Source: Candidatus Zymogenaceae bacterium
Lineage (GTDB): Bacteria > Desulfobacterota > Zymogenia > Zymogenales > Zymogenaceae
Assembly: GCA_016931225.1 (NCBI GenBank)
Contig: JAFGFE010000011.1
Span: 1 to 55,378 of the forward strand
DNA length: 55,378 bases
Reading direction: 5' to 3'
A program made the translations under genes and the position numbers. The notes under the pieces were generated by a model, which was not told the origin of the DNA, searched no databases, and saw nothing but the letters and a program-made list of their open reading frames with translations. Of this stretch, positions 30,355 through 42,745 are shown in pieces (position 1 is the first letter of the stretch; each line of letters opens with the position of its first letter).

Positions 30355-32586
30355 CTATTTTGTTTTGATATCGAAAACGCCGTCCCAGTCTGCTTCCGGA
30401 GGATTGTGTTTCGCTTCAGTGATCCTGTCGATATAGAGGGCGGTTGGTTTATCGTCAGGAAATTGCACCTGCACTTCCTTGAAGATCGCCAGGGCCACAT
30501 CCCAGTCCCGTTCTCTGGCCGCGGCCATCGCCTTTTCAAAGAGATGAACCAGTTTCTGAAGCTCTTGATCACCGTTTTGTTTGCCGAGCACTTCGTATAT
30601 TTTCACCGGTTTGGTCTTTCCCTTTACCCGTACCAGGTCGAGTTCCCGGCACAGGATGAGCTCGTTGACGTGCTCGTAGGTGAATTCGGAGATGATAATG
30701 TTCGTACCGTAGATTTTATTGATGCCCTCAAGCCGGGACGCCAGGTTTACGTTGTCTCCCATGACGGTATAATCGAATCGTTTTTCCGATCCCATGTTCC
30801 CCACCGCGGCGAACCCGGAGTTGACGCCGATGCGGATTTCGAGCTTCGGCCTGCCTTCCCTTTTCCATTTCTCCTGCAGGTGCCCAAGCTCGCTCATCAT
30901 ATCAAGAGCCGTCAGGCACGCCTTGAGATGATGATCCGGCTGCTCCAGCGGCGCGCCGTAAACCGCCATGATGGCGTCGCCGATGTACTTGTCCAGGAGT
31001 CCCCGATGGGTGAAGACCACATCGGTCATTGCGGTGAGGTATTCGTTGAGAATGTGAACCAGTTCTTCCGGGCTGAGATTTTCCGAAAAGGTCGTGAAAC
31101 CGGCGATGTCGGAAAACAGGATGGAGACCTCTTTCCTGTCTCCACCCAGGGTGAGCTTGGAGGGATCCTTGATAATCTCATCCACAACCGCCTCGGGGAC
31201 GTAAAACTCGAAGGCGCTCTTGATCTGGCGTCCCGCCCGCTCCACGATGATGTATCGAATCAGGGTGAGGGTGGTATATGCCATGGCGACGGTGAGCAAA
31301 GGCGGCATGATCTCGATCCACGCCAGATTATGTCGAAACATGTACTCGGTGTATCCCAGCCATCCCGCCACTAGGATGATACTGACGATGGCGCCCTGCC
31401 AGGCGTTTACTCGGGGGAGGACGAATCCGAGCAGAATGCCGAAAATCAATATGACCAATATGACCAAAAACGGTTCCCAACGGGGTACGTAGAGGAAATC
31501 CTGGTGCAGGATGTTGTCGATAATGGTCGCGTTGATCTCCATGCCCGGGATCTCGCTGGTGAAGGGGGAAACCCGCAGATCATAGGTTCCCATTGCTACC
31601 GTTCCGATGATGGCGATCTTGTTTTCGAATTCGTCGGCGGAGAATTTCCCATGGTACACGTCGGTGAAAGAGTAATAGGGGTAGGTGTAAAGACCTCCCC
31701 GGTAGTTGATAAGCATACGGCCCTGGGGATCGACCGGGATTTCTATATCCCCCAGCTCGATTTTATAGGCGCCCTCTTCCCCGACGGAAATACCGGGTTT
31801 GGGGGCACCCAGGTAGGCCCGGGCCACCTCGAAAGCGAGGGAGGGGAAGAAGACATCCCTATCCTTGTATCTCATGACCAACTGCGTCCAGCGGTTCGTG
31901 CCGTCAAGGTCGGGGAAAACGTTGAAGAATCCGAATCCATCGGAAAATTTAGAAATGATGTCGATATTCGGTTCCGGCAGTACACCCTCTGGGATAACGT
32001 CCGTATTTGAATATACCGACGACTTATACACGTAACCAAAACTTGATTTTTTATCAAGGTAATAATAGTAATTCTCTCTTTCCTCATCGGTGAGATGGGC
32101 GATGTTTTTTTCGTTCATGTGAAAAAAATACGCCAACACCACTTTCGGCGTATTATCCAGTTCCATGGCGAAATGATAATCGCTGTCCAGGGTGGCTCGG
32201 GTTTCTGCGAAAAAGAGCGTCAACTTCGAGTCATAGGTAAGGATATCCTTGATGTGCTCCTGGATATAGTCCACGGTTTCCATGCCGGAGTATTTGTCCG
32301 GCTCGTCGAAAACCATATCAAACGCAATGACGCTTACGCCCCATTTGTTAAGGTTTTTTACCACCCCAGCGAAGTAGCGGCGGGGGAAAGGCCAGCGGCC
32401 CAGCTCGTCCAGGGTTTTCTCATCGATGGCGATGATGACCACCTCGTCCCCCGGCTGTGTGGGTCCTCTGAGGAGGAAGCGGAAGTCCAGTACCTTGTTC
32501 TCGATGGTGTAAAAGAGGTTATTCCGTAACAGAATGAGCACAAGAATCGAGATGACAATACCGATGATGATGGCGAATTTTTTCAT
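30355..32586 (-). CDS. CHASE2-domain adenylate/guanylate cyclase
   Basis: A 743-residue membrane sensor. A first helix (residues 4-24) is followed by an extracytoplasmic CHASE2 domain (about 25-330, with 'VIIAIDEKTLDELGRWPFPR'), three helices (about 335-425), and a class III cyclase domain with 'VSILFSDIAGFT', 'LLDKYIGDAIMAVYGAP' (two metal Asp) and 'KRFDYTVMGDNVNLASRLE'. The residues after SEKRFDYTVMGD suggest ATP rather than GTP. The C-terminal 70 residues resemble TPR helices. It would make cAMP in response to an envelope cue. It follows the potassium-channel gene on the same strand, after 105 bases; the cue is unknown. Confidence 0.92.
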   Translation of the reverse strand: MKKFAIIIGIVISILVLILLRNNLFYTIENKVLDFRFLLRGPTQPGDEVVIIAIDEKTLDELGRWPFPRRYFAGVVKNLNKWGVSVIAFDMVFDEPDKYSGMETVDYIQEHIKDILTYDSKLTLFFAETRATLDSDYHFAMELDNTPKVVLAYFFHMNEKNIAHLTDEERENYYYYLDKKSSFGYVYKSSVYSNTDVIPEGVLPEPNIDIISKFSDGFGFFNVFPDLDGTNRWTQLVMRYKDRDVFFPSLAFEVARAYLGAPKPGISVGEEGAYKIELGDIEIPVDPQGRMLINYRGGLYTYPYYSFTDVYHGKFSADEFENKIAIIGTVAMGTYDLRVSPFTSEIPGMEINATIIDNILHQDFLYVPRWEPFLVILVILIFGILLGFVLPRVNAWQGAIVSIILVAGWLGYTEYMFRHNLAWIEIMPPLLTVAMAYTTLTLIRYIIVERAGRQIKSAFEFYVPEAVVDEIIKDPSKLTLGGDRKEVSILFSDIAGFTTFSENLSPEELVHILNEYLTAMTDVVFTHRGLLDKYIGDAIMAVYGAPLEQPDHHLKACLTALDMMSELGHLQEKWKREGRPKLEIRIGVNSGFAAVGNMGSEKRFDYTVMGDNVNLASRLEGINKIYGTNIIISEFTYEHVNELILCRELDLVRVKGKTKPVKIYEVLGKQNGDQELQKLVHLFEKAMAAARERDWDVALAIFKEVQVQFPDDKPTALYIDRITEAKHNPPEADWDGVFDIKTK

Positions 32587-32691: not shown

Positions 32692-33705
32692 TTATGTCTC
32701 GGCCCGGGCCAAGGATTGGAGGTCCTCAATTTTTCCCAGGGCGATTAACACATCGTTCTGCTCGATGGCGGTGCTGGGTGGAGGATTGAAGAGCATCTGG
32801 CCGTCCGGTTTGAGTATGGCCACGATAATGACGCCGTATCTGTTTCGGACCGCAGAATCGATGATGGTCTTGCCCAGAAGCTGGGAGGTTTCGCTGATTT
32901 TGATCTCCTCCATCGCCAGGGCCAGGTTCTTTCGGGCGACCGCCAGGTCCACAAATTCCACCACGGCCGGGCGCAGGACGAAATTGGCCATGCGGCGGCC
33001 GCCGATGGCGTAGGGACAGACCACCTCGTCCGCTCCGGCCGCCCTCAGGCGTTTTTCCGTGATATCATCGTTGGCCCGGCCCATCACGAATATATCCGGG
33101 TTGAGGGCCTTGGCGCTGAGGGTTATGTATACGTTATCCGCAGCGGACCCGACGGCGGCGATCAAACCCGTGGCCCGCATGATGCCGGCGTCGAGGAGGA
33201 TCTCCTCCTCGACGGAGTTGCCGAACACGGCGGGAAAATGCGCCCTCGCCAGCTCCTCTATTTTTTCCATGGCTGCATCAATCACCACGAACGGGACCTT
33301 CTGGTAGTGAAATTCCTGGGCGATGACCTTTCCGATGCGGCCGAATCCGCAGATAATATAATGATTTTTCAGGTTTTTTATTTCTTTGGCCAATCTCCTG
33401 CTCCCCATAAACTTCAGGATTTCACCCTCGATCAAAAAGCGGGTAAACGAACCCAGCGCCACCGCCGCCACAAGGATGCCGGAGGTCAACAGGATAATGG
33501 TGAAAATCCGGCCCTCTCTGCCCAGAGGTTTGACTTCACCAAATCCGGTGGTGGTCAGGGTAATGACCGTCATATAGAGGGAATCGAGGATGTTCCACTT
33601 CTCGACGAACATATACCCGATGGTTCCGAAGAGGATAACCAAAAACAGAAGCCCCAGGGAATACCAGATCCTCCGGGTCGAGGTAAAAAATCCCGTATCT
33701 ATAAT
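32692..33705 (-). CDS. Two-helix potassium channel with RCK (TrkA-N/TrkA-C) domains
   Basis: About 337 residues: a helix (WYSLGLLFLVILFGTIGYMF), a pore loop with the selectivity filter TTGFGE (GFG where GYG is common), a second helix, then a Rossmann-type RCK domain opening with 'HYIICGFGRIGKVIAQEF' and a TrkA-C domain at the end. It should be an NAD- or nucleotide-gated K+ channel of the MthK type. No ATG, GTG or TTG stands before the first helix inside the frame except far upstream within the glycosidase gene. An ATT at 33705 overlaps the glycosidase stop and has GGAG four bases upstream, so I give that as the likely start. The channel would be translationally coupled to the glycosidase. 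Confidence 0.8.
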   Translation of the reverse strand: MIDTGFFTSTRRIWYSLGLLFLVILFGTIGYMFVEKWNILDSLYMTVITLTTTGFGEVKPLGREGRIFTIILLTSGILVAAVALGSFTRFLIEGEILKFMGSRRLAKEIKNLKNHYIICGFGRIGKVIAQEFHYQKVPFVVIDAAMEKIEELARAHFPAVFGNSVEEEILLDAGIMRATGLIAAVGSAADNVYITLSAKALNPDIFVMGRANDDITEKRLRAAGADEVVCPYAIGGRRMANFVLRPAVVEFVDLAVARKNLALAMEEIKISETSQLLGKTIIDSAVRNRYGVIIVAILKPDGQMLFNPPPSTAIEQNDVLIALGKIEDLQSLARAET

Positions 33706-35003
33706 GTTGCTCCGTATGCTTTGACGAGGGAATGATCGATGTGGTTGTTTTTCGCGATTTGGGCGAACATCTCTCCCGAGGGTTTGACGGTACGCGCCTG
33801 GGTGTCGAAATCCACATGAATCATGCCGAACCGCATGGTGTAGCCCTCGGCCCATTCAAAATTATCAAGGGTGGACCAGAAGAAATATCCCCTCACGTCA
33901 CTGTCTTCCTGAATCGCCCGTCCGACCTCGGCGATATGCTGGCCCATGTATTTGACCCGGTAGGTGTCGTCCTCGGTGGCCACGCCGTTCTCGGTGACAT
34001 ACAGAGGCTTTTCATAGCGTCTCAGCTCGCGAAGCAGTCGGTAGATGCCGTGGGGATAGTATTCCCCCTCGCCCAGGTGGGAGGTCTCCGCACCCGGCGG
34101 AACAATGGTTTCGCCGAAGAGCTGAAAGGGGCTCGAGAGGGAAAACATCACCTGGTCCCGGGCGTAGTAGTTCAGGCCGATGAAATCATACGCTCCCGCG
34201 ATGACGTCTCTGTTTTTTCGCGAGACCTTTATGAGTCCGTGGGACGCGCCGTCGTAGAGAGCGTCGAGCATGTCCCAGTTGAAGCTTTTCGCCTGCCTGT
34301 TGGCCACGGCGATATCCCGCTTGTTTTCCGGCCGGTGGGGATCGAAGACCCGAAGATGTCGGTTGAAGCCGACCTGGGCGTGGGGAATATGCTCCTTGAT
34401 TTTCCGGTAGGTCAGGGCGTGGGCCAGCAGCATGTGTGAGGCGACCCGAAAACCCTTCAGGAAGCTTTTCCGTCCCGGGGCGTGGGTGCCCAGGATATAT
34501 CCCATGTAGGCATAGATCATCGGTTCGTTTATGGGCATCCAGAAGGTGACGTCATTTCCCAGGGCCGAGGCGACAACCCCCGCGTAGGAGACGAAGCGCT
34601 CTATCGTCTCCGGGTTTGACCAGCCCCCCTTTTTCGCCAGCCACAGCGGTGTGGTGAAGTGGTGCAGGGTCACGAGCGGTTCCATCCCATTCTCGCGCAA
34701 GACCACCGTCATGTCTCGATAGTGATCCAGCGCCGCCCTGCTGAAATATCCGGGCGCCGGCTCCACCCGGCTCCATTCCACACTGAAGCGATGGGCGTTG
34801 TGATTGAGAGTTTTCAGGAGGGCGAAATCTTCAGGATAGCGTCGAAAGTGGTCGCACGCGTCACCGGAGATGGAGCCGTCGATTATCGTCCCCGGTTTTT
34901 GTTCATGCGCCCACCAGTCGTTGTTGGTATTGCCCCCTTCAACCTGATGGGATGAGGTGGCGCCGCCCCACAAAAAGCCATCCGGAAACATATATTCGGT
35001 CAT
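33699..35003 (-). CDS. Glycoside hydrolase family 1 (beta-glucosidase-like)
   Basis: A 434-residue GH1 enzyme. The signature 'FPDGFLWGGATSSHQVEG' opens it; the acid/base Glu is in 'MPINEPMIY' (usual TFNEP) and the nucleophile Glu in 'LYVTENGVA'; 'RFSVEWSRVEP' is the ligand strand. These enzymes hydrolyse beta-linked glucosides or related sugars. No signal peptide, so it acts in the cytoplasm. ATG 35003 is chosen with AGGAAG upstream; the N-terminal extension of the longer frame is not GH1. A paralogue follows at 35266-36591. Confidence 0.92.
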   Translation of the reverse strand: MTEYMFPDGFLWGGATSSHQVEGGNTNNDWWAHEQKPGTIIDGSISGDACDHFRRYPEDFALLKTLNHNAHRFSVEWSRVEPAPGYFSRAALDHYRDMTVVLRENGMEPLVTLHHFTTPLWLAKKGGWSNPETIERFVSYAGVVASALGNDVTFWMPINEPMIYAYMGYILGTHAPGRKSFLKGFRVASHMLLAHALTYRKIKEHIPHAQVGFNRHLRVFDPHRPENKRDIAVANRQAKSFNWDMLDALYDGASHGLIKVSRKNRDVIAGAYDFIGLNYYARDQVMFSLSSPFQLFGETIVPPGAETSHLGEGEYYPHGIYRLLRELRRYEKPLYVTENGVATEDDTYRVKYMGQHIAEVGRAIQEDSDVRGYFFWSTLDNFEWAEGYTMRFGMIHVDFDTQARTVKPSGEMFAQIAKNNHIDHSLVKAYGATL

Positions 35004-35207
35004 GAATGCTCTTCCTCGCTGGGTATATTCATCAGTGAAAAGATCACATCGGCTCGATACGATGTGTGCGCTCACCCGATGTGTCCCGTACGTCGTGAAA
35101 TTCGTGCGAAACGGCCTGCATGGGGGTCATTCATTATTGTAGCCCATCCAGTTTTTTATTCAAGGAAAAACAGTGATCGTGATCCTGTTGTTTCATCTCC
35201 CATCGAC

Positions 35208-35240
35208 AAAAAAAGGGGATGTGCTCGCAGACACATCCCC
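35208..35240 (-). terminator. Rho-independent terminator after the second GH1 gene
   Basis: GGGGATGTG pairs with CACATCCCC over an eight-base loop (35215-35240). Read on the minus strand it is followed by seven T residues. Confidence 0.9.
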
Positions 35241-35265
35241 GCTGTACGCCCGGGTATGGGCGTTT

Positions 35266-36591
35266 TTATTCGACGGTTACATTGTACTTTTTGCAGATCG
35301 TATCGTCCAGTGCGTTTTTCTTCGCAATATCTCCAAAGAGCTTCGCGGAATCGTTGACGGTGCGCTCGAAGGTTTCAAAGTCGACATGGATCATGCCGAA
35401 GCGCATGAGGTATCCCTCGTTCCACTCGAAGTTGTCCAGCGTCGACCAGAAGAGATACCCACGGAGATCCACGCCGTCCTGGACGGCCCGGCCCGCCTCG
35501 GCGATGTGGTTGGCCATGTATTTCACCCGGTAGGCGTCGTTGTCGGTCGACACGCCGTTTTCGGTGATGTACACCGGCTGACCGTATGATCCGAGGATCT
35601 TCAGGAGTCTCCGGATGCCGTGGGGGTAGTATTCGCCCTCGGGCTTGTCTCCGTACGCCCCCTCGTGGGATGTTTCCGCGCCCTCGGGCATAACGATTTT
35701 GCCGAAGAGGGTCCCGGGGTGAAAGATGCTGAACTTGATGCTGTCCTTGGAGTAGTAATTGAGGGAGAGAAAATCACTGCTTTCACGGACGGTCGATTTC
35801 TCCGTTGCCGGCACCTTTATGCGGCCCGTGGTCTCGCCGGTAAAGAGGGCGTTGATGATGTCCATGTTGAATACCTTATCCATTCGGGCCGCCGCCGCCC
35901 GATCCCGCTTGTTGTCCTCCCTGAGGGGATCAAAGATACGCATGTGTTTGTTGAATCCGACCTGGGCGTCGGGATATTTTTCCTTGATAATCCGGTACGC
36001 CCGGCCGTGTGCCACCAGCATGTGGGTCATGACGTTGAATCCGGCCAGCGGTTTTTTCATTCCCGGGGCGTAGCTGCCGTCCATGAACGACAGGAATGTA
36101 TAGACCACAGGCTCATTTATGGGCATCCAGAAGGTGACGATATCCCCCAGGGCGTCCACCATGACGCGTGTGAATTTTTCGAATCGCTCGATCGAGTCCG
36201 GATTGAGCCATCCCCCGGTACGGGCAAGCCAGATCGGTGTGGTGAAATGATGCAGGGTCACAAACGGCTCCATGCCGTTTTCCCTGATGCTTTCGGCCAC
36301 CTGGCGGTAATGGTTTACCTCCACCTTGGAGATGTAGTCCCGGGCGGGCTCCACACGGCTCCATTCCACACTGAAGCGATGGGCGTTGTGATTGAGGGTT
36401 TTGAGGAGGGCGAAATCCTCGCGGAAGCGGGAGTAGTGATCGCAGGCGTCCCCGGAGACGGTTCCGTCGGTTATTTTCCCGTAAAGCTGCTCGAAGACGA
36501 ACCAGTCGTTGTTGGTATTTCGCCCTTCGACCTGGTGTGATGATGTGGCCCCGCCCCAGTAGAAACCGGCGGGAAAAGTAATCGGCTTCAT
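35266..36591 (-). CDS. Glycoside hydrolase family 1 (paralogue)
   Basis: A 441-residue GH1 enzyme, similar in sequence and order to the one downstream: 'FPAGFYWGGATSSHQVEG', 'RFSVEWSRVEPA', 'WMPINEPVVYTF' with the acid/base Glu, and 'VYITENGVS' with the nucleophile. The two genes are tandem duplicates that have diverged, which suggests separate substrates. Cytoplasmic. A strong terminator lies between it and the next gene (35215-35240), so the copies are separate transcripts. No sugar transporter is nearby. ATG 36591 is the start; the longer frame is not conserved. Confidence 0.92.
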   Translation of the reverse strand: MKPITFPAGFYWGGATSSHQVEGRNTNNDWFVFEQLYGKITDGTVSGDACDHYSRFREDFALLKTLNHNAHRFSVEWSRVEPARDYISKVEVNHYRQVAESIRENGMEPFVTLHHFTTPIWLARTGGWLNPDSIERFEKFTRVMVDALGDIVTFWMPINEPVVYTFLSFMDGSYAPGMKKPLAGFNVMTHMLVAHGRAYRIIKEKYPDAQVGFNKHMRIFDPLREDNKRDRAAAARMDKVFNMDIINALFTGETTGRIKVPATEKSTVRESSDFLSLNYYSKDSIKFSIFHPGTLFGKIVMPEGAETSHEGAYGDKPEGEYYPHGIRRLLKILGSYGQPVYITENGVSTDNDAYRVKYMANHIAEAGRAVQDGVDLRGYLFWSTLDNFEWNEGYLMRFGMIHVDFETFERTVNDSAKLFGDIAKKNALDDTICKKYNVTVE

Positions 36592-36745
36592 GATACGCCC
36601 CTTCTTTCCTGGTTGGTTGCCGTCTCTTTTTTTAATTCGTCTCGTGTATGATGTATCGATATTCACCTGTAGTAAGACAATAGTATTGCAAAAAAAAGGC
36701 CCGGCCACAAGAAAAATGGGACGTTGGCACCCAAACAAAAATGTT

Positions 36746-36821: not shown

Positions 36822-39800
36822 ATGGTCGGTGGATATCGAGTCTCGGTGCTGGCGGCGGTGTGTGTCGTAATGCTTACCGGATTTGCCAAAGGCGAAGAAG
36901 CAGACGCCGCCGGCGCGCTTGAAAGGGGTCATGCATATATGGATCGGGGAGAGACGGCCGAAGCCCTGGTGGAGTACGATCGAGCGGTGGAGCTGTCCCG
37001 ACAGGCCGGGGATACGGACTCTCTTGTAACTTCCCTGAACTGGGCGGGGTTGGCCGCGTTCGGACTGCGTGAGTTCGACACAGCCGTGGAGTATTACCTC
37101 GAGGTCGTGGTGATCGAACAGGAGACGGGAGACCGAATCGGCGTGGGAAATGCGCTGGAGTTTATCGGGAAGGCATACATTTTTCTCGAAGAATACGACA
37201 CCGCCGGCGCATATCTTGCCGAAGCCATGAACATCGCCGTGGAAACCGGGGATGATTCGTTGAGGTGCGATGTGCTTTCGAATATGGGACTGCTGGCCGG
37301 TTGGGCCGGCGACTATGTCGGGGCCGAGTCGTATTATAGGGAAGCCCTGGATACGGCCCTGGCACAGAAGGACGATGCCGCTGTCTATTTCGTACGGTCC
37401 GATCTCGGCTTTCTGGAGATGCGCCGGGGCGATTACGAAAAAGCGGTCGAACACTTCTCCGGCGCGGTTGACGTTGCCCATCGGATCGGGAATACGGACT
37501 TGGTTCGGGACGGCCTGGAAAACCTCGCGTACGCCGAGAAGCGGGCGGGGTTCTATGACGAGGCCATTGAGCACTTCACGGAAATCCTCCATGCCGAAGA
37601 TGCGCTGGAATATATTGATGCGGATCTTGATCTGGAAATGGACATCGCCGAAACGCTTCGGGATGCGGGGCGATATGAAGAGGCGCTCTCCAGCTATGAG
37701 GCGATACGGGTGAAATACCGGGAGCGGGGAGACATCCCGGGCGAGATCGACGCCCTCGGTGGGGCGGCGTGGGCCCTGGAGAGTCTGAATCGTTTTGAGG
37801 AGGAGCTTGCCCTCCTGGAAGACGCCCGCGGGCTGGCCCAAAGTATAGGGGATCTCGAAACCGAGGGGACGCTTCTCGTTCGGCTCGGTATGATACTGGC
37901 TGTCCTTGGAAAACAGGGGGAGGCTCTCGCCGTTCTTGAAGACGCCCGTGAAGTGAACCGGAAGGCGGGGATACGGGCCATGGAAGCGCAGTCCCTTGTG
38001 GGATTGGCCACCGTCACCCTCGATGATCCGGACCGATCTCTGGAATATGCCGAGGAGTCGCTGGAAATCTACCGGGAGCTCGAAGACCGGGTGGGGGAGG
38101 GGATTATTTTGGGAATAATCGCCACGGCATACTACAATCAGGGGAAAAGCCTCAAGGCGGCGCTCTATTACAAGAAAGTACTCAGGATCGCTGAAGAGGT
38201 GGGAAGCGATTTTCCCCTGGCGGTGGACCCGCTGATAACCGGCATGCTGCTGGTGGGAGCCGGTGAATATAAACATGCCGTTGGGTATCTGGAACAGTCC
38301 CTTTCCGCCGGTATGGAAAACAACGATGTTAACACGATCGGCTATTCGGCGGCGTACCTCGGATTTTCGTATAAAAACCTGAAAGACTATGAACAGGGAG
38401 TGACATATTACGAGATCGCCATCGACGCCCTTGAGTCCGTCAGAGGAACCATCCAGACCGAGGAGCTTCGCACATCCTACATGTCCGGGAAAATGCAGGT
38501 CTATGAGGATATCATAACGATGCTTATCGAATTGGGACGGTATGATGAGGCGTTTGAATTTATGGAGCGCTCCCGATCCCGCTCGTTCCTTGACATGCTG
38601 GCGTCTCGGACCATCACGGTGGCGGATGAAGCGGGCAGTGAATACCTCAGACGGGAGCGGGAGCTCCGGCGACTCCTCAAAGATGCGACACTCATGCCGT
38701 CCGCCGGTGGCGACGCACAGCCGATTAAAGAGACACGGGAGGCGCACGACGCCCTCGATCGGTCGCTTGACATCCAGAAGGAGTATCTGCGTCTCATCGA
38801 AACAATAAAGTCAACAGACCCGAGGCTGGCATCCCTGGTGACGGTCGTTCCCCCCTCTCTGGAAGCGGTCCGGGAGAGCCTCGGAGACGACGTCTGCCTG
38901 ATTGAATATTTCATCTCCGATGAAAGCTTCACGGCCACAGGAGAAAGCAATCTCTTCGTCTTTGTGGTCACTCCCCGCCGCATCGATGTGCTCACCATCG
39001 ATACAAATCGTGATTTCCTGGAGGACGCGGTCTCCCGTCTGAGGGATGCCGTTCGATACCTTGACGACGAGGCCTTTCTCTCACTGTCGGTGCAATTGTA
39101 CGCACTCATCCTGGAGCCGGCCCTGGAGGGGGTCGATGCGGAAACCCTCATTATCATTCCCCACGGGCCGCTTCATTATCTGCCATTCGCCGCCCTCTCC
39201 GACGGTGAGAGCTTTCTCATCGACCGGTACGATGTGGTGGTAAACCCCAGCGCCGGCGTCATGGAGTATATCGGCGAAAAAAGAACGGATGATCCCGGGG
39301 AAAAAATCATCGCCTTTGGAAATCCGGAAACGCCCCACAGTCCCCTGCCGTTTGCGGAGGATGAGGTGACCAAAATCGCCGCCATCATGGAGCCGGAGGC
39401 CGATGTGTCGGTATATCTCGGGTCGGAGGCAACGGAAAAAAGAGGGAAGAGCCTCTTTCGCGAGTATGACCTGGTACACCTTGCCTGCCATGCCTCGTTC
39501 GATGAAACCGATCCCCTGGATTCCGCCCTATACCTGACGGCGGGAGGGGGCGAGGACGGTCGGCTGACGGTGGCGGAGCTGTTCGCCCTGGAACTGGACG
39601 AGACGATGCTTGTGGTGCTCTCGGCCTGCGAGACCGGACTTTCCCGGGTGACCGGGGGGGACGAGCTGGTCGGCCTGACCCGGGGTTTCCTGTATGCCGG
39701 AACGCCGTCGATGGTGGTGACGCTGTGGGAGGTGGCGGACGACTCCACGGCCTCTGTCATGACCCGTTTCTATGAAAACCTGAAGGAAGGACAGACCCCG

Positions 39801-39902
39801 TCTTCTGCCCTGAACGAGGCCCAGCGGTGGGCGAAATCGAGCACCGATTATAAGAGCCCCTTTTTCTGGGCGCCCTTTGTGCTGGTGGGAAGTTGGGAAT
39901 GA
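36822..39902 (+). CDS. Exported TPR-CHAT protease
   Basis: A 1026-residue protein with a signal peptide (residues 1-24, ending GFAKG), about ten tetratricopeptide repeats (residues about 30-560) and a C-terminal CHAT (caspase-like) domain from about residue 690. The catalytic His is His890 in 'LVHLACHASFDETDPLDS' and the catalytic Cys is Cys936 in 'VVLSACETGLSRV'; both are intact. CHAT proteases are usually cytoplasmic; here the N-terminus looks exported, so the target and activator would be periplasmic or extracellular. No gene for a target lies next to it. Start by AGGGGAGGAA upstream of ATG 36822. Confidence 0.9.
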   Translation: MVGGYRVSVLAAVCVVMLTGFAKGEEADAAGALERGHAYMDRGETAEALVEYDRAVELSRQAGDTDSLVTSLNWAGLAAFGLREFDTAVEYYLEVVVIEQETGDRIGVGNALEFIGKAYIFLEEYDTAGAYLAEAMNIAVETGDDSLRCDVLSNMGLLAGWAGDYVGAESYYREALDTALAQKDDAAVYFVRSDLGFLEMRRGDYEKAVEHFSGAVDVAHRIGNTDLVRDGLENLAYAEKRAGFYDEAIEHFTEILHAEDALEYIDADLDLEMDIAETLRDAGRYEEALSSYEAIRVKYRERGDIPGEIDALGGAAWALESLNRFEEELALLEDARGLAQSIGDLETEGTLLVRLGMILAVLGKQGEALAVLEDAREVNRKAGIRAMEAQSLVGLATVTLDDPDRSLEYAEESLEIYRELEDRVGEGIILGIIATAYYNQGKSLKAALYYKKVLRIAEEVGSDFPLAVDPLITGMLLVGAGEYKHAVGYLEQSLSAGMENNDVNTIGYSAAYLGFSYKNLKDYEQGVTYYEIAIDALESVRGTIQTEELRTSYMSGKMQVYEDIITMLIELGRYDEAFEFMERSRSRSFLDMLASRTITVADEAGSEYLRRERELRRLLKDATLMPSAGGDAQPIKETREAHDALDRSLDIQKEYLRLIETIKSTDPRLASLVTVVPPSLEAVRESLGDDVCLIEYFISDESFTATGESNLFVFVVTPRRIDVLTIDTNRDFLEDAVSRLRDAVRYLDDEAFLSLSVQLYALILEPALEGVDAETLIIIPHGPLHYLPFAALSDGESFLIDRYDVVVNPSAGVMEYIGEKRTDDPGEKIIAFGNPETPHSPLPFAEDEVTKIAAIMEPEADVSVYLGSEATEKRGKSLFREYDLVHLACHASFDETDPLDSALYLTAGGGEDGRLTVAELFALELDETMLVVLSACETGLSRVTGGDELVGLTRGFLYAGTPSMVVTLWEVADDSTASVMTRFYENLKEGQTPSSALNEAQRWAKSSTDYKSPFFWAPFVLVGSWE

Positions 39903-40074: not shown

Positions 40075-40929
40075 TTATTCCCAGCTTCCGCGAAAGAGGC
40101 GTATCATCTCAACGACGATTCTGGTGATGTCTTTTCGGGCCGAAGCGGTAATTTCATAGGAAAGTGTGGTCTTGGGCGCCTTCTCCATGGCCTCCTTGAT
40201 GTTCTTCAGGTAGGTGGTGCGCATGGCGGTGGAGATGTTGATTTTTACGGCGCCGTTCTCGATGAGAGAACGATAGTCCCGGTCGGACAGCCCCGATGCC
40301 CCGTGAATGGTCATGCCGATGGAAAGAGAGTCCTTCAGGGTCTTGAGCAGATTGAAGTTAAGATTCGGCTTATTGATGTATGAACCGTATACGTTGCCGA
40401 AGGACGGCACAAAGATATCTATATCCGTTTCCTTCACAAAGGTCTTGGCCTCTTCCGGATCGGTAAAGGTTTGGGTGACCTTTTTCTCAAGGTCTTCACG
40501 TCCCCCCAGTATCCCCAGTTTTCCCTCCACAGCCGCATTGTATACCTCCGCAATCTCGACCGCCTGTCGGGTCAGTTCGATGTTGTCCTTGAAATCGAGA
40601 AACGATCCATCGATCATCACCGAGGTAAAGCCGGAGTCCAGGGCGGTGCGAATCTGGTCCAGGTTTTCGGCCATGTTCAGATGAAGCACCACCTTGGCCT
40701 CGCGATCCTGGGCCAGGGAGGCGATGGAGCGGCCGAAGGCGCGGATGTCGTACAGTTCCGAAAGCGGCCGAGCCCCGCCCTGGATGATGACCGGGAAGTT
40801 CAGCTCCTCGGCGGCGTCCAGTATGGACATGATGAAGTCCGGGTTTCCCGCATTGGTGTCGAAGGCGCCCAGTGCGAACCCGTTTTCCCGTGCGTCTTGG
40901 TACTGGTCGATAGCGTCGATAAGGGGCAT
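40075..40929 (-). CDS. Class II aldolase (FbaA/GatY family) homologue lacking catalytic residues
   Basis: A 284-residue protein with the full class II fructose/tagatose-bisphosphate aldolase outline: 'GAFDTNAGNPDFI', 'LHLNMAENLDQI', 'SVMIDGSFLDFKDNI', 'GKLGILGGRED', 'FVPSFGNVYGSY', 'IHGASGLSDRD' and 'AVKINISTAMR'. Compared with the canonical motifs LHLDHG, VEAELG, GTxHGxY and HGxSG, Asp85 is Asn, the zinc His86 is Met, Glu137 is Lys and the zinc His181 is Tyr; only His209 of the three zinc ligands remains. Fold and phosphate-binding loops are kept. It cannot be an ordinary zinc aldolase, and may be a sugar-phosphate binding or regulatory protein. The dyad at 40989-41006 lies 60 bases upstream. 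Confidence 0.85.
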   Translation of the reverse strand: MPLIDAIDQYQDARENGFALGAFDTNAGNPDFIMSILDAAEELNFPVIIQGGARPLSELYDIRAFGRSIASLAQDREAKVVLHLNMAENLDQIRTALDSGFTSVMIDGSFLDFKDNIELTRQAVEIAEVYNAAVEGKLGILGGREDLEKKVTQTFTDPEEAKTFVKETDIDIFVPSFGNVYGSYINKPNLNFNLLKTLKDSLSIGMTIHGASGLSDRDYRSLIENGAVKINISTAMRTTYLKNIKEAMEKAPKTTLSYEITASARKDITRIVVEMIRLFRGSWE

Positions 40930-40988: not shown

Positions 40989-41006
40989 ATGCAGGACATC
41001 CTGCAT
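40989..41006. promoter_or_regulatory. Perfect palindrome, candidate operator
   Basis: ATGCAGGA-CA-TCCTGCAT, 8-bp arms, 60 bases upstream of the aldolase-like start and 180 upstream of the CBS gene. Divergent intergenic region; the binder is unknown. Confidence 0.45.
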
Positions 41007-41185
41007 GGAAGTGTCAGGGTATTGTTATCATAGGATAAAATATTTGTCAATTACTTCAAGTCCGCCCGTTTCCTGTTGATTTTTCTCGCAAAATGCGGTA
41101 TGTAAAATAGGTTGGATATTTAATTCGCCAAAAGCGCACCGGAGAGGAAAAACGGCGTATTTTTGTGTTTACGTGAGGGTGATGT

Positions 41186-41599
41186 ATGAAAAATTTCGTA
41201 CTCTTGTACGTCAAGGATGCCATGACCACCGATCTTATCACGGTTTCTCCTACTACCAAACTCAAGGGGGTCGAGGGGCTGTTTGACACCTATGATTACA
41301 ATTTCATCCCTGTTATGGAAGAGGGACGCATGGTCGGGATCGTTTCAAAGCTTGATATACTCAAGCACTTCGTGTTTACTCCCCAATCGATGATCCCCCA
41401 TTATGACCGGCTCCTGGAGGACGAGGTGCGCCTCGTTATGAACAAGGGCGTGCTGACCGTATCCACCGATACTCCCCTCACCAGAGTGCTTGAGCTGATG
41501 GTGGAGACGAAGCTCAGAAGTTTCCCGGTGGTGGACAGTGAGATGAACCTTCTTGGAATCATCTCTCGAGACGACATTCTGAGACAATTACGGGAATGA
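41186..41599 (+). CDS. CBS-domain pair protein
   Basis: A 137-residue protein of two CBS units: 'VKDAMTTDLITVSPTTKLKG' with 'YDYNFIPVMEEGRMVGIVSK' and 'MNKGVLTVSTDTPLTRVLEL' with 'SFPVVDSEMNLLGIISRDD'. Such stand-alone pairs bind adenosine nucleotides and report energy state to partners. No enzyme or transporter domain is fused. Upstream region shows a weak TTGATT/TATGTA pair (41076-41104). Confidence 0.9.
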   Translation: MKNFVLLYVKDAMTTDLITVSPTTKLKGVEGLFDTYDYNFIPVMEEGRMVGIVSKLDILKHFVFTPQSMIPHYDRLLEDEVRLVMNKGVLTVSTDTPLTRVLELMVETKLRSFPVVDSEMNLLGIISRDDILRQLRE

Positions 41600-41857
41600 T
41601 GACGGGTCGGATGTGCGAGGGAAATACGCGCCTTTCAAGTGTATCAAATCCGATAAAAAAATGATCCAAAAAAGCCATATGTGAGTTCGATGAGACACAC
41701 CCGATAATCATCGGCGTATCACATAAAATGGAAATATGTATCCTCCTTCATGTTGGTTCAATTTTAATATGTAATATTCAATATGTTGCAAGTCGTGCTG
41801 GTTGGAGATGACCGGAACATGACATCACGTCATATGAACATGCAGGAGGTATCTGTT

Positions 41858-42745
41858 ATGACTCATGCAGTGCGTTGGGATACGAAAAATGGGACCATAC
41901 TTCTGGATGGAAACGGACAACAAGAACGGGTGATACTGCTTCGCCGGGGGTTTTGGGATGGATTCCTGCCCGAAATCGTGGGCATCCTGGGTGAAGACGG
42001 TATGTCGATAATGATGAGAAACCTTGTGGAGCGTGTGGGACTGAACGGTGAGTTCGGCGACAAGCTGAGTTTCCGTACATTGATACAGGTGTTCGACAAG
42101 CGAATCCTGCCGGTGGACAAGGCAAGCAGCGTTATACATGAGACCGTCACCTGGGATAAGGACGATCGTGAAATCACCGTTTTCGGCGATACCGTCTGGA
42201 TTCTCCAGGATATCTTCACCATTCAGAGGTTCAAGGATGTTCTGGTGGACGTGCTCGACGAAAACGGAGCCAACGCCATTATCAGGTCCGTCAGCAGAAA
42301 AGGCGGCCTGGTGGTGGGAGAAACGGCCCTGAAAAACTACGGCTGGAAGAACATCGATGACGCCTTGGCATCCCAGAACGAAAAGGTGTTTGCCTATACG
42401 TTCAGTGTTGCGGGGTGGTGTCGGGCCCGTTCGGCTTACGCAAAAGGACCGGACGGCGAGCAGATGCTGGTGGCGGTGTGTGACAACACCTACGAATCCG
42501 AAGGCGTTACCGCGAAGAAGCCGTCGTGTCGCATCCTGGCAAGTTACATGGAGGGATTCTACAAGGGGGTGCTCTCCCGACTGGGGGACAAGGCGGTGGA
42601 GTGCCGGGAGGTGACCTGTCGCGCAACCGGAGCCGATCACTGCACGTTCGCCTTCAAAATGAAGGATGCCAAGGCCGCCCCGCTGGAGTGGGACGGTTTG
42701 GCCGGTGAGTGGCAGGCCCTGGAAGCCCAGCTTCTCGGGCAGTAA
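41858..42745 (+). CDS. V4R-domain protein (heme/hydrocarbon-binding type)
   Basis: About 295 residues. Two similar N-terminal repeats (about 1-70 and 75-150, each ending 'FxDGFLPEIVxILGE.G' or 'FKDVLVDVLDENGAN') are followed by a C-terminal 4-vinyl reductase domain (V4R): residues about 160-290 end with 'ECREVTCRATGADHCTFAF', which has the Cys/His triad of the family. V4R domains bind metals and small organic ligands; some are part of bacteriochlorophyll synthesis or of sensors. No kinase or output domain is fused. ATG 41858 is chosen because AGGAGGT lies seven bases upstream. Confidence 0.8.
   Translation: MTHAVRWDTKNGTILLDGNGQQERVILLRRGFWDGFLPEIVGILGEDGMSIMMRNLVERVGLNGEFGDKLSFRTLIQVFDKRILPVDKASSVIHETVTWDKDDREITVFGDTVWILQDIFTIQRFKDVLVDVLDENGANAIIRSVSRKGGLVVGETALKNYGWKNIDDALASQNEKVFAYTFSVAGWCRARSAYAKGPDGEQMLVAVCDNTYESEGVTAKKPSCRILASYMEGFYKGVLSRLGDKAVECREVTCRATGADHCTFAFKMKDAKAAPLEWDGLAGEWQALEAQLLGQ

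Follow-up and report, generated by a model that had tools for sequence, protein, structure and literature searches.

Genomic Context of a Class II Aldolase Homologue

The window, that is, the whole 55,378-nucleotide stretch of DNA analyzed here, comes from a Candidatus Zymogenaceae bacterium (GCA_016931225.1, contig JAFGFE010000011.1). It carries on its minus strand an open reading frame of 284 codons plus a stop (Table 1), the product of which matched the family PF01116 (F_bP_aldolase) over residues 10 to 280 with 227.1 bits, against a gathering cut-off of 25.5. Identity with solved class II fructose-bisphosphate (FBP) and tagatose-bisphosphate (TBP) aldolases was approximately 30%. The protein missed the cut-offs of all NCBIfam aldolase subfamilies (TIGR00167, TIGR01859, GatY, KbaY, and others), with a best score of 194.5 vs. 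a cut-off of 396, and 192.6 vs. 215.6 for TIGR00167. The gene product should be labeled a homologue of class II aldolases and not itself called an aldolase.

Table 1. Positions of the aldolase homologue, its active-site codons and its neighboring features in the window.
Feature	Position	Strand	Basis
Class II aldolase homologue (PF01116), remodelled active site, 284 aa	40075..40929	-	ORF and profile match
Asn85 codon (catalytic Asp in canonical enzymes, HLDH)	40675..40677	-	Asp in 62/62 canonical homologues; Asn throughout the clade where data exist
Met86 codon (canonical first zinc His; Gln in orthologues)	40672..40674	-	Alignment
Lys137 codon (canonical Glu of VEAELG)	40519..40521	-	Glu in 63/63 canonical homologues
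Tyr181 codon (canonical second zinc His, GTxHG)	40387..40389	-	Alignment
His209 codon (third zinc His, retained)	40303..40305	-	Alignment
Probable sigma-70 promoter of the aldolase homologue, TTGACA ... AACAAT	41021..41050	-	TTGACA recurs upstream of orthologues
Palindrome ATGCAGGA-CA-TCCTGCAT in the leader of the aldolase homologue	40989..41006	.	Perfect; not conserved
TPR-CHAT protein, convergent syntenic neighbor	36822..39902	+	Domain match
Divergent two-CBS-domain protein	41186..41599	+	Domain match; syntenic neighbor

Our sample of the class Zymogenia comprised four genomes, three of which (the genome of the window, G000, as well as G002 and G003) carry the homologue. The order GH1, TPR-CHAT, aldolase homologue and divergent CBS pair is kept in these three, allowing for small insertions and for a contig break in G003. 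The fourth genome, G001, represents a third, related genus in which the GH1, TPR-CHAT, CBS, TetR, and acyl-CoA synthetase genes are present with no aldolase homologue at the locus. Its slot between TPR-CHAT and CBS (L074:7625-9415) holds an unrelated gene, named by eye as membrane-glycosyltransferase-like. Because the CBS gene is present in G001 without the homologue, it is not an obligate partner, and no conserved partner or operon mate that would back a regulatory role was found at the compared loci.

Other genes of the region were also inspected. The TPR-CHAT protein has a signal-peptide-like start, and both residues of the CHAT protease dyad are intact in it, the His in VHLACHA and the Cys in VVLSACETG; all four genomes of the class encode it beside GH1 genes. 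A block conserved across the family includes two beta-glucosidase-like GH1 genes in tandem (33699-36738), which score below the TIGR03356 cut-off and have the catalytic NEP and TENG motifs. A CHASE2-adenylate/guanylate cyclase protein (30355-32586) adjoins an Mla-type transporter operon, and a V4R-domain protein with a weak BchJ match (41783-42745) is encoded downstream of the CBS gene.

A TTGACA box followed by a TGATA element was found upstream of all three orthologues, the window gene included, each of which is also preceded by a purine-rich ribosome site. On the minus strand, the leader palindrome forms a hairpin followed by a T-run; the hairpin folds marginally better than shuffled sequences (z = -1.95) and, with the T-run, could serve as an attenuator. 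The palindrome was absent from the orthologous intergenic regions, and every other copy in the genome had two mismatches or more, those with two being near the control level. These two results rule out a shared operator. An earlier note on this DNA had taken the nearby palindrome and the CBS-pair gene as fitting regulation. Both features are real, but neither holds as a pointer to regulation, since the palindrome is unconserved and the CBS gene occurs in G001 without the homologue.

Remodelling of the Active Site

Residues were mapped by aligning the window protein with solved class II aldolases and approximately 60 homologues from the phylum. The canonical comparison set comprised 61 to 63 homologues from the phylum and from viral contigs, the number varying by site. 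In this set Asp85, His86, Glu137, and His181 were 100% conserved, and all four are changed in the clade formed by the window protein and its orthologues. The alignment bore out, with exact numbering, the replacements listed in the earlier note, namely Asn85-Met86 for Asp-His, Lys137 for Glu, and Tyr181 for His, with His209 kept. None of the approximately 60 canonical homologues sampled has any of the clade substitutions. Asn85, Lys137, Tyr181, His209, and Ala235 are common to the orthologues wherever a fragment spans the site, Ala235 standing in all clade members in place of the Asp/Glu that follows N-x-x-T. Position 86 varies within the clade (Met in the window protein, Gln in the orthologues), a drift indicating that selection does not maintain a metal ligand there. 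The catalytic Asp of HLDH is therefore missing from the window protein and its orthologues alike, His209 is the only one of the three zinc-binding His that remains, and the Glu of VEAELG that lies beside the metal is Lys in all members. Given these swaps an ordinary zinc mechanism is implausible, in agreement with the earlier view that a zinc aldolase could not work with this site.

Other parts of the protein are better preserved. Among the 36 near-invariant columns (at least 95% conserved in canonical homologues), 23 are kept in the clade, including E135, E145, H209, G210, G213, K229, and N231, and the other 13, which include the four catalytic and metal columns, differ in one or more members. 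The phosphate contacts of HGxS and NxxT are kept as S212, N231, and T234. The suggestion that the phosphate loops are retained thus holds for these residues and for the intact H209-G210-A211-S212 stretch, but not for the MIDGS motif, which the orthologues have lost (MISTG), nor for the loop after strand 2, QGGA[RK]PLSELYDIRAFGR, which is specific to the clade. Asp24, at the end of strand 1, is likewise clade-specific.

The retention of His209 and Glu135 leaves room for a metal enzyme with altered ligation, in which another divalent ion would sit on His209, Glu135, and Tyr181 and support a different reaction; Tyr can ligate some metals. A bound cation is hard to square with a Lys in place of the metal-side Glu and with the Met/Gln drift at a former ligand, and we consider such an enzyme very unlikely.

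Orthologues, Distribution, and Selection

Orthologues were found in two other Candidatus Zymogenaceae genomes: one in G002 (69% identity) and two at contig ends of G003 (70 and 63%), one of these contigs being a Candidatus Zymogenus record. The clade thus rests on three genomes, and the window protein and one orthologue are its only full-length members. The two G003 contig ends (L061 and L062) both stop inside the aldolase homologue, with 93% identity in the overlapping protein, and are probably strain variants that broke the assembly.

No further clade member was seen among the matches inspected from 395 genomes of the phylum and from 12 and 63 genomes of two other classes. Two class-wide searches around the best canonical scorers returned canonical sites only, and a scan of viral contigs for the clade found nothing. 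Scanning genome contigs with short N-terminal peptide patterns, which falls short of an exhaustive census, returned the G003 contig alone. A plasmid search gave 403 records, all below 60% identity and the best near 33 to 36%, compared by identity only. The clade has so far been seen only in Candidatus Zymogenaceae, with profile searches confined to its phylum. No description of a comparable pseudo class II aldolase turned up in a literature search that covered subscription papers only in part.

In the phylogenetic tree the clade was monophyletic (support 100/100), with a stem of 2.68 changes per site and tips of 0.13 to 0.55; its sister group is unsure (85/94, long branches). Pairwise dN/dS among orthologues ranged from 0.02 to 0.13 where it could be estimated, synonymous change being near saturation in most pairs. 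These sequence comparisons indicate a single remodelling on the stem followed by purifying selection. A burst of change on a stem, with constraint afterwards, speaks for the gain of a new function rather than for decay. The earlier note had proposed that a conserved N-M/Y variant clade would support neofunctionalisation, and such a clade is present in the tree, though with Met or Gln at position 86.

A decaying or mis-assembled copy has in its favor the loss of catalytic residues and nothing more. Against it stand the fixed substitutions shared with other genomes, the open reading frames, the low dN/dS, and the conserved promoter and synteny, making it extremely unlikely. Local decay or a sequencing artefact, which the earlier note had set against its own reading, is excluded by the conserved orthologues under purifying selection.

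Predicted Structure and Structural Relatives

An AlphaFold2 model built from a ten-sequence alignment is a TIM barrel (mean pLDDT 86.8, pTM 0.86). In this model N85 and M86 end strand 3, K137 ends strand 5, Y181 lies in the loop after strand 6, H209 follows strand 7, and N231 is on strand 8. The model is weak at the loop 144-152 and at the block 181-190, which includes the Tyr181 loop (mean pLDDT 61); we take these two regions to match the mobile loops of class II aldolases.

Among solved structures, the model came closest to class II aldolases acting on sulfofructosephosphate, fructose bisphosphate, and tagatose bisphosphate (Z about 35). The best match was 8q5a (Z 35.8 over 273 residues, 2.4 Å), a structure of the class II sulfofructosephosphate aldolase SqiA, followed by 8q57 (Z 35.5), with 31 to 32% identity to SqiA. 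Unlike the window protein, SqiA is a zinc enzyme with a canonical HLDH/E/H/H center, as seen in the alignment with 8q58. Class II FBP/TBP aldolases (KbaY/AgaY 1gvf, FbaA type) resemble the window protein in fold over the full length and in sequence, and share with it His209, Glu135, Glu145, Ser212, Asn231, and Thr234. What sets the window protein apart from them is the replacement of the catalytic Asp, of two zinc His, of the Glu beside the metal, and of the acidic residue (Asp/Glu) that follows N-x-x-T.

Elsewhere in the genome, at C5:47279-48181 on a different contig, lies a further PF01116 gene, of canonical type, which scores 353.5 bits against the family; among solved structures its product is closest to the Giardia and Thermus fructose-bisphosphate aldolases (FBA). 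With this canonical FBA present, the glycolytic role is covered and the window copy freed from it.

The canonical paralogue and the fold, kept entire in the model, would also fit a structural role without catalysis, in which the window protein joins a complex with a different aldolase or other enzyme in the manner of GatZ/KbaZ with GatY/KbaY. Class II aldolases of the FbaA/KbaY type are oligomers, and GatZ/KbaZ is an aldolase-fold protein that supports rather than catalyzes. The likeness to GatZ/KbaZ (PF08013) is one of working only, as the window protein belongs to a different Pfam family; it matched PF01116 alone, and no PF08013 member was found in the class either. Moreover, the gene stands alone between convergent and divergent neighbors, and is not near the canonical fba gene, and the pocket is conserved in a specific new form that a pure scaffold would not need. 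A structural partner is thus possible, though unlikely.

Putative Role of the Remodelled Protein

The reading that we prefer, and to which we give an even chance of being right, is that the gene encodes a family-specific, neofunctionalised paralogue of the FbaA/KbaY type that is now a metal-free, non-catalytic, sugar-phosphate-binding pseudo-aldolase. The TIM barrel would survive, as would part of the donor-phosphate pocket, while the zinc/Asp center would have become an Asn85-Lys137-Tyr181-His209 site, with Lys137 supplying positive charge in place of the lost metal. A phosphorylated sugar, a triose or a similar anion would then be bound and not cleaved, and the protein may act as a sensor, a sink or a regulator of a partner. 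We infer the loss of zinc and of aldol cleavage, the retained ligand binding, the ligand itself and the regulatory role.

Zinc is probably not bound, because two of the three His are gone, the adjacent Glu is now Lys, and position 86 drifts. In the class II mechanism the metal polarizes the ketone and the Asp handles the C4 hydroxyl. Class II aldol cleavage should not be possible because the ketone-polarizing metal and the Asp are both missing. The H. pylori residue H180 presumably corresponds to the second zinc His. True enzymes carrying single substitutions at matching sites have been crystallized with substrate, as indicated by the PDB titles: the Giardia D83A mutant with FBP (3gb6, D83A being visible in HLDHG) and the H. 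pylori H180Q mutant with DHAP or FBP (5ud2 and 5ud3). As such Asp and His mutants crystallize with substrate and S212, N231, and T234 are kept, predicted binding of a sugar or triose phosphate by the window protein is plausible.

A Lys and a Tyr newly fixed at the barrel mouth in the model would equally be expected of a new metal-free catalyst, and the main rival to a binding protein is that Lys137 and Tyr181 form a metal-free catalytic pair. We know of no aldolase with a Schiff-base lysine at strand 5 of the class II fold family, which counts against such a catalyst. Class I aldolases use a Schiff-base lysine and class II aldolases a divalent metal (PMC12965863). The window protein would be an active, class I-like enzyme on a class II barrel, in which a ketone, for example dihydroxyacetone phosphate, would be bound as an iminium by Lys137 on strand 5, with Tyr181 or Glu145 as the acid/base. 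Several observations are consistent with this proposal: the clade has fixed Lys137 and Tyr181, which no canonical homologue has; Glu135, Glu145, Ser212, Asn231, and Thr234 are retained; strand 1 ends in a clade-specific Asp24; and purifying selection is strong. The locus, however, has no adjoining pathway gene, and overall we regard the lysine catalyst as unlikely. If it is right, class I aldolases and the window protein would have in common a TIM barrel with Lys and Tyr at its mouth, but no sequence relation to them was detected and the window lysine is on strand 5 of a class II scaffold. It is quite unlikely that this class II barrel, having lost zinc and evolved a Lys137-Tyr181 site, crossed naturally from metal-enolate to Schiff-base chemistry within a single fold family.

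In this narrow lineage a textbook active site has been remodelled, and the change is real and conserved; the fold is known and the variant is new. The metal/Asp center is otherwise invariant in the homologues sampled, and class II is one of the two textbook solutions to aldol chemistry. A conserved clade with this center replaced would offer either a clear case of an enzyme that has become a binding protein, as we favor, or a test of whether the class II scaffold can cross to lysine chemistry. For PF01116 matches in such genomes, an annotation as fructose-bisphosphate aldolase is unwarranted.
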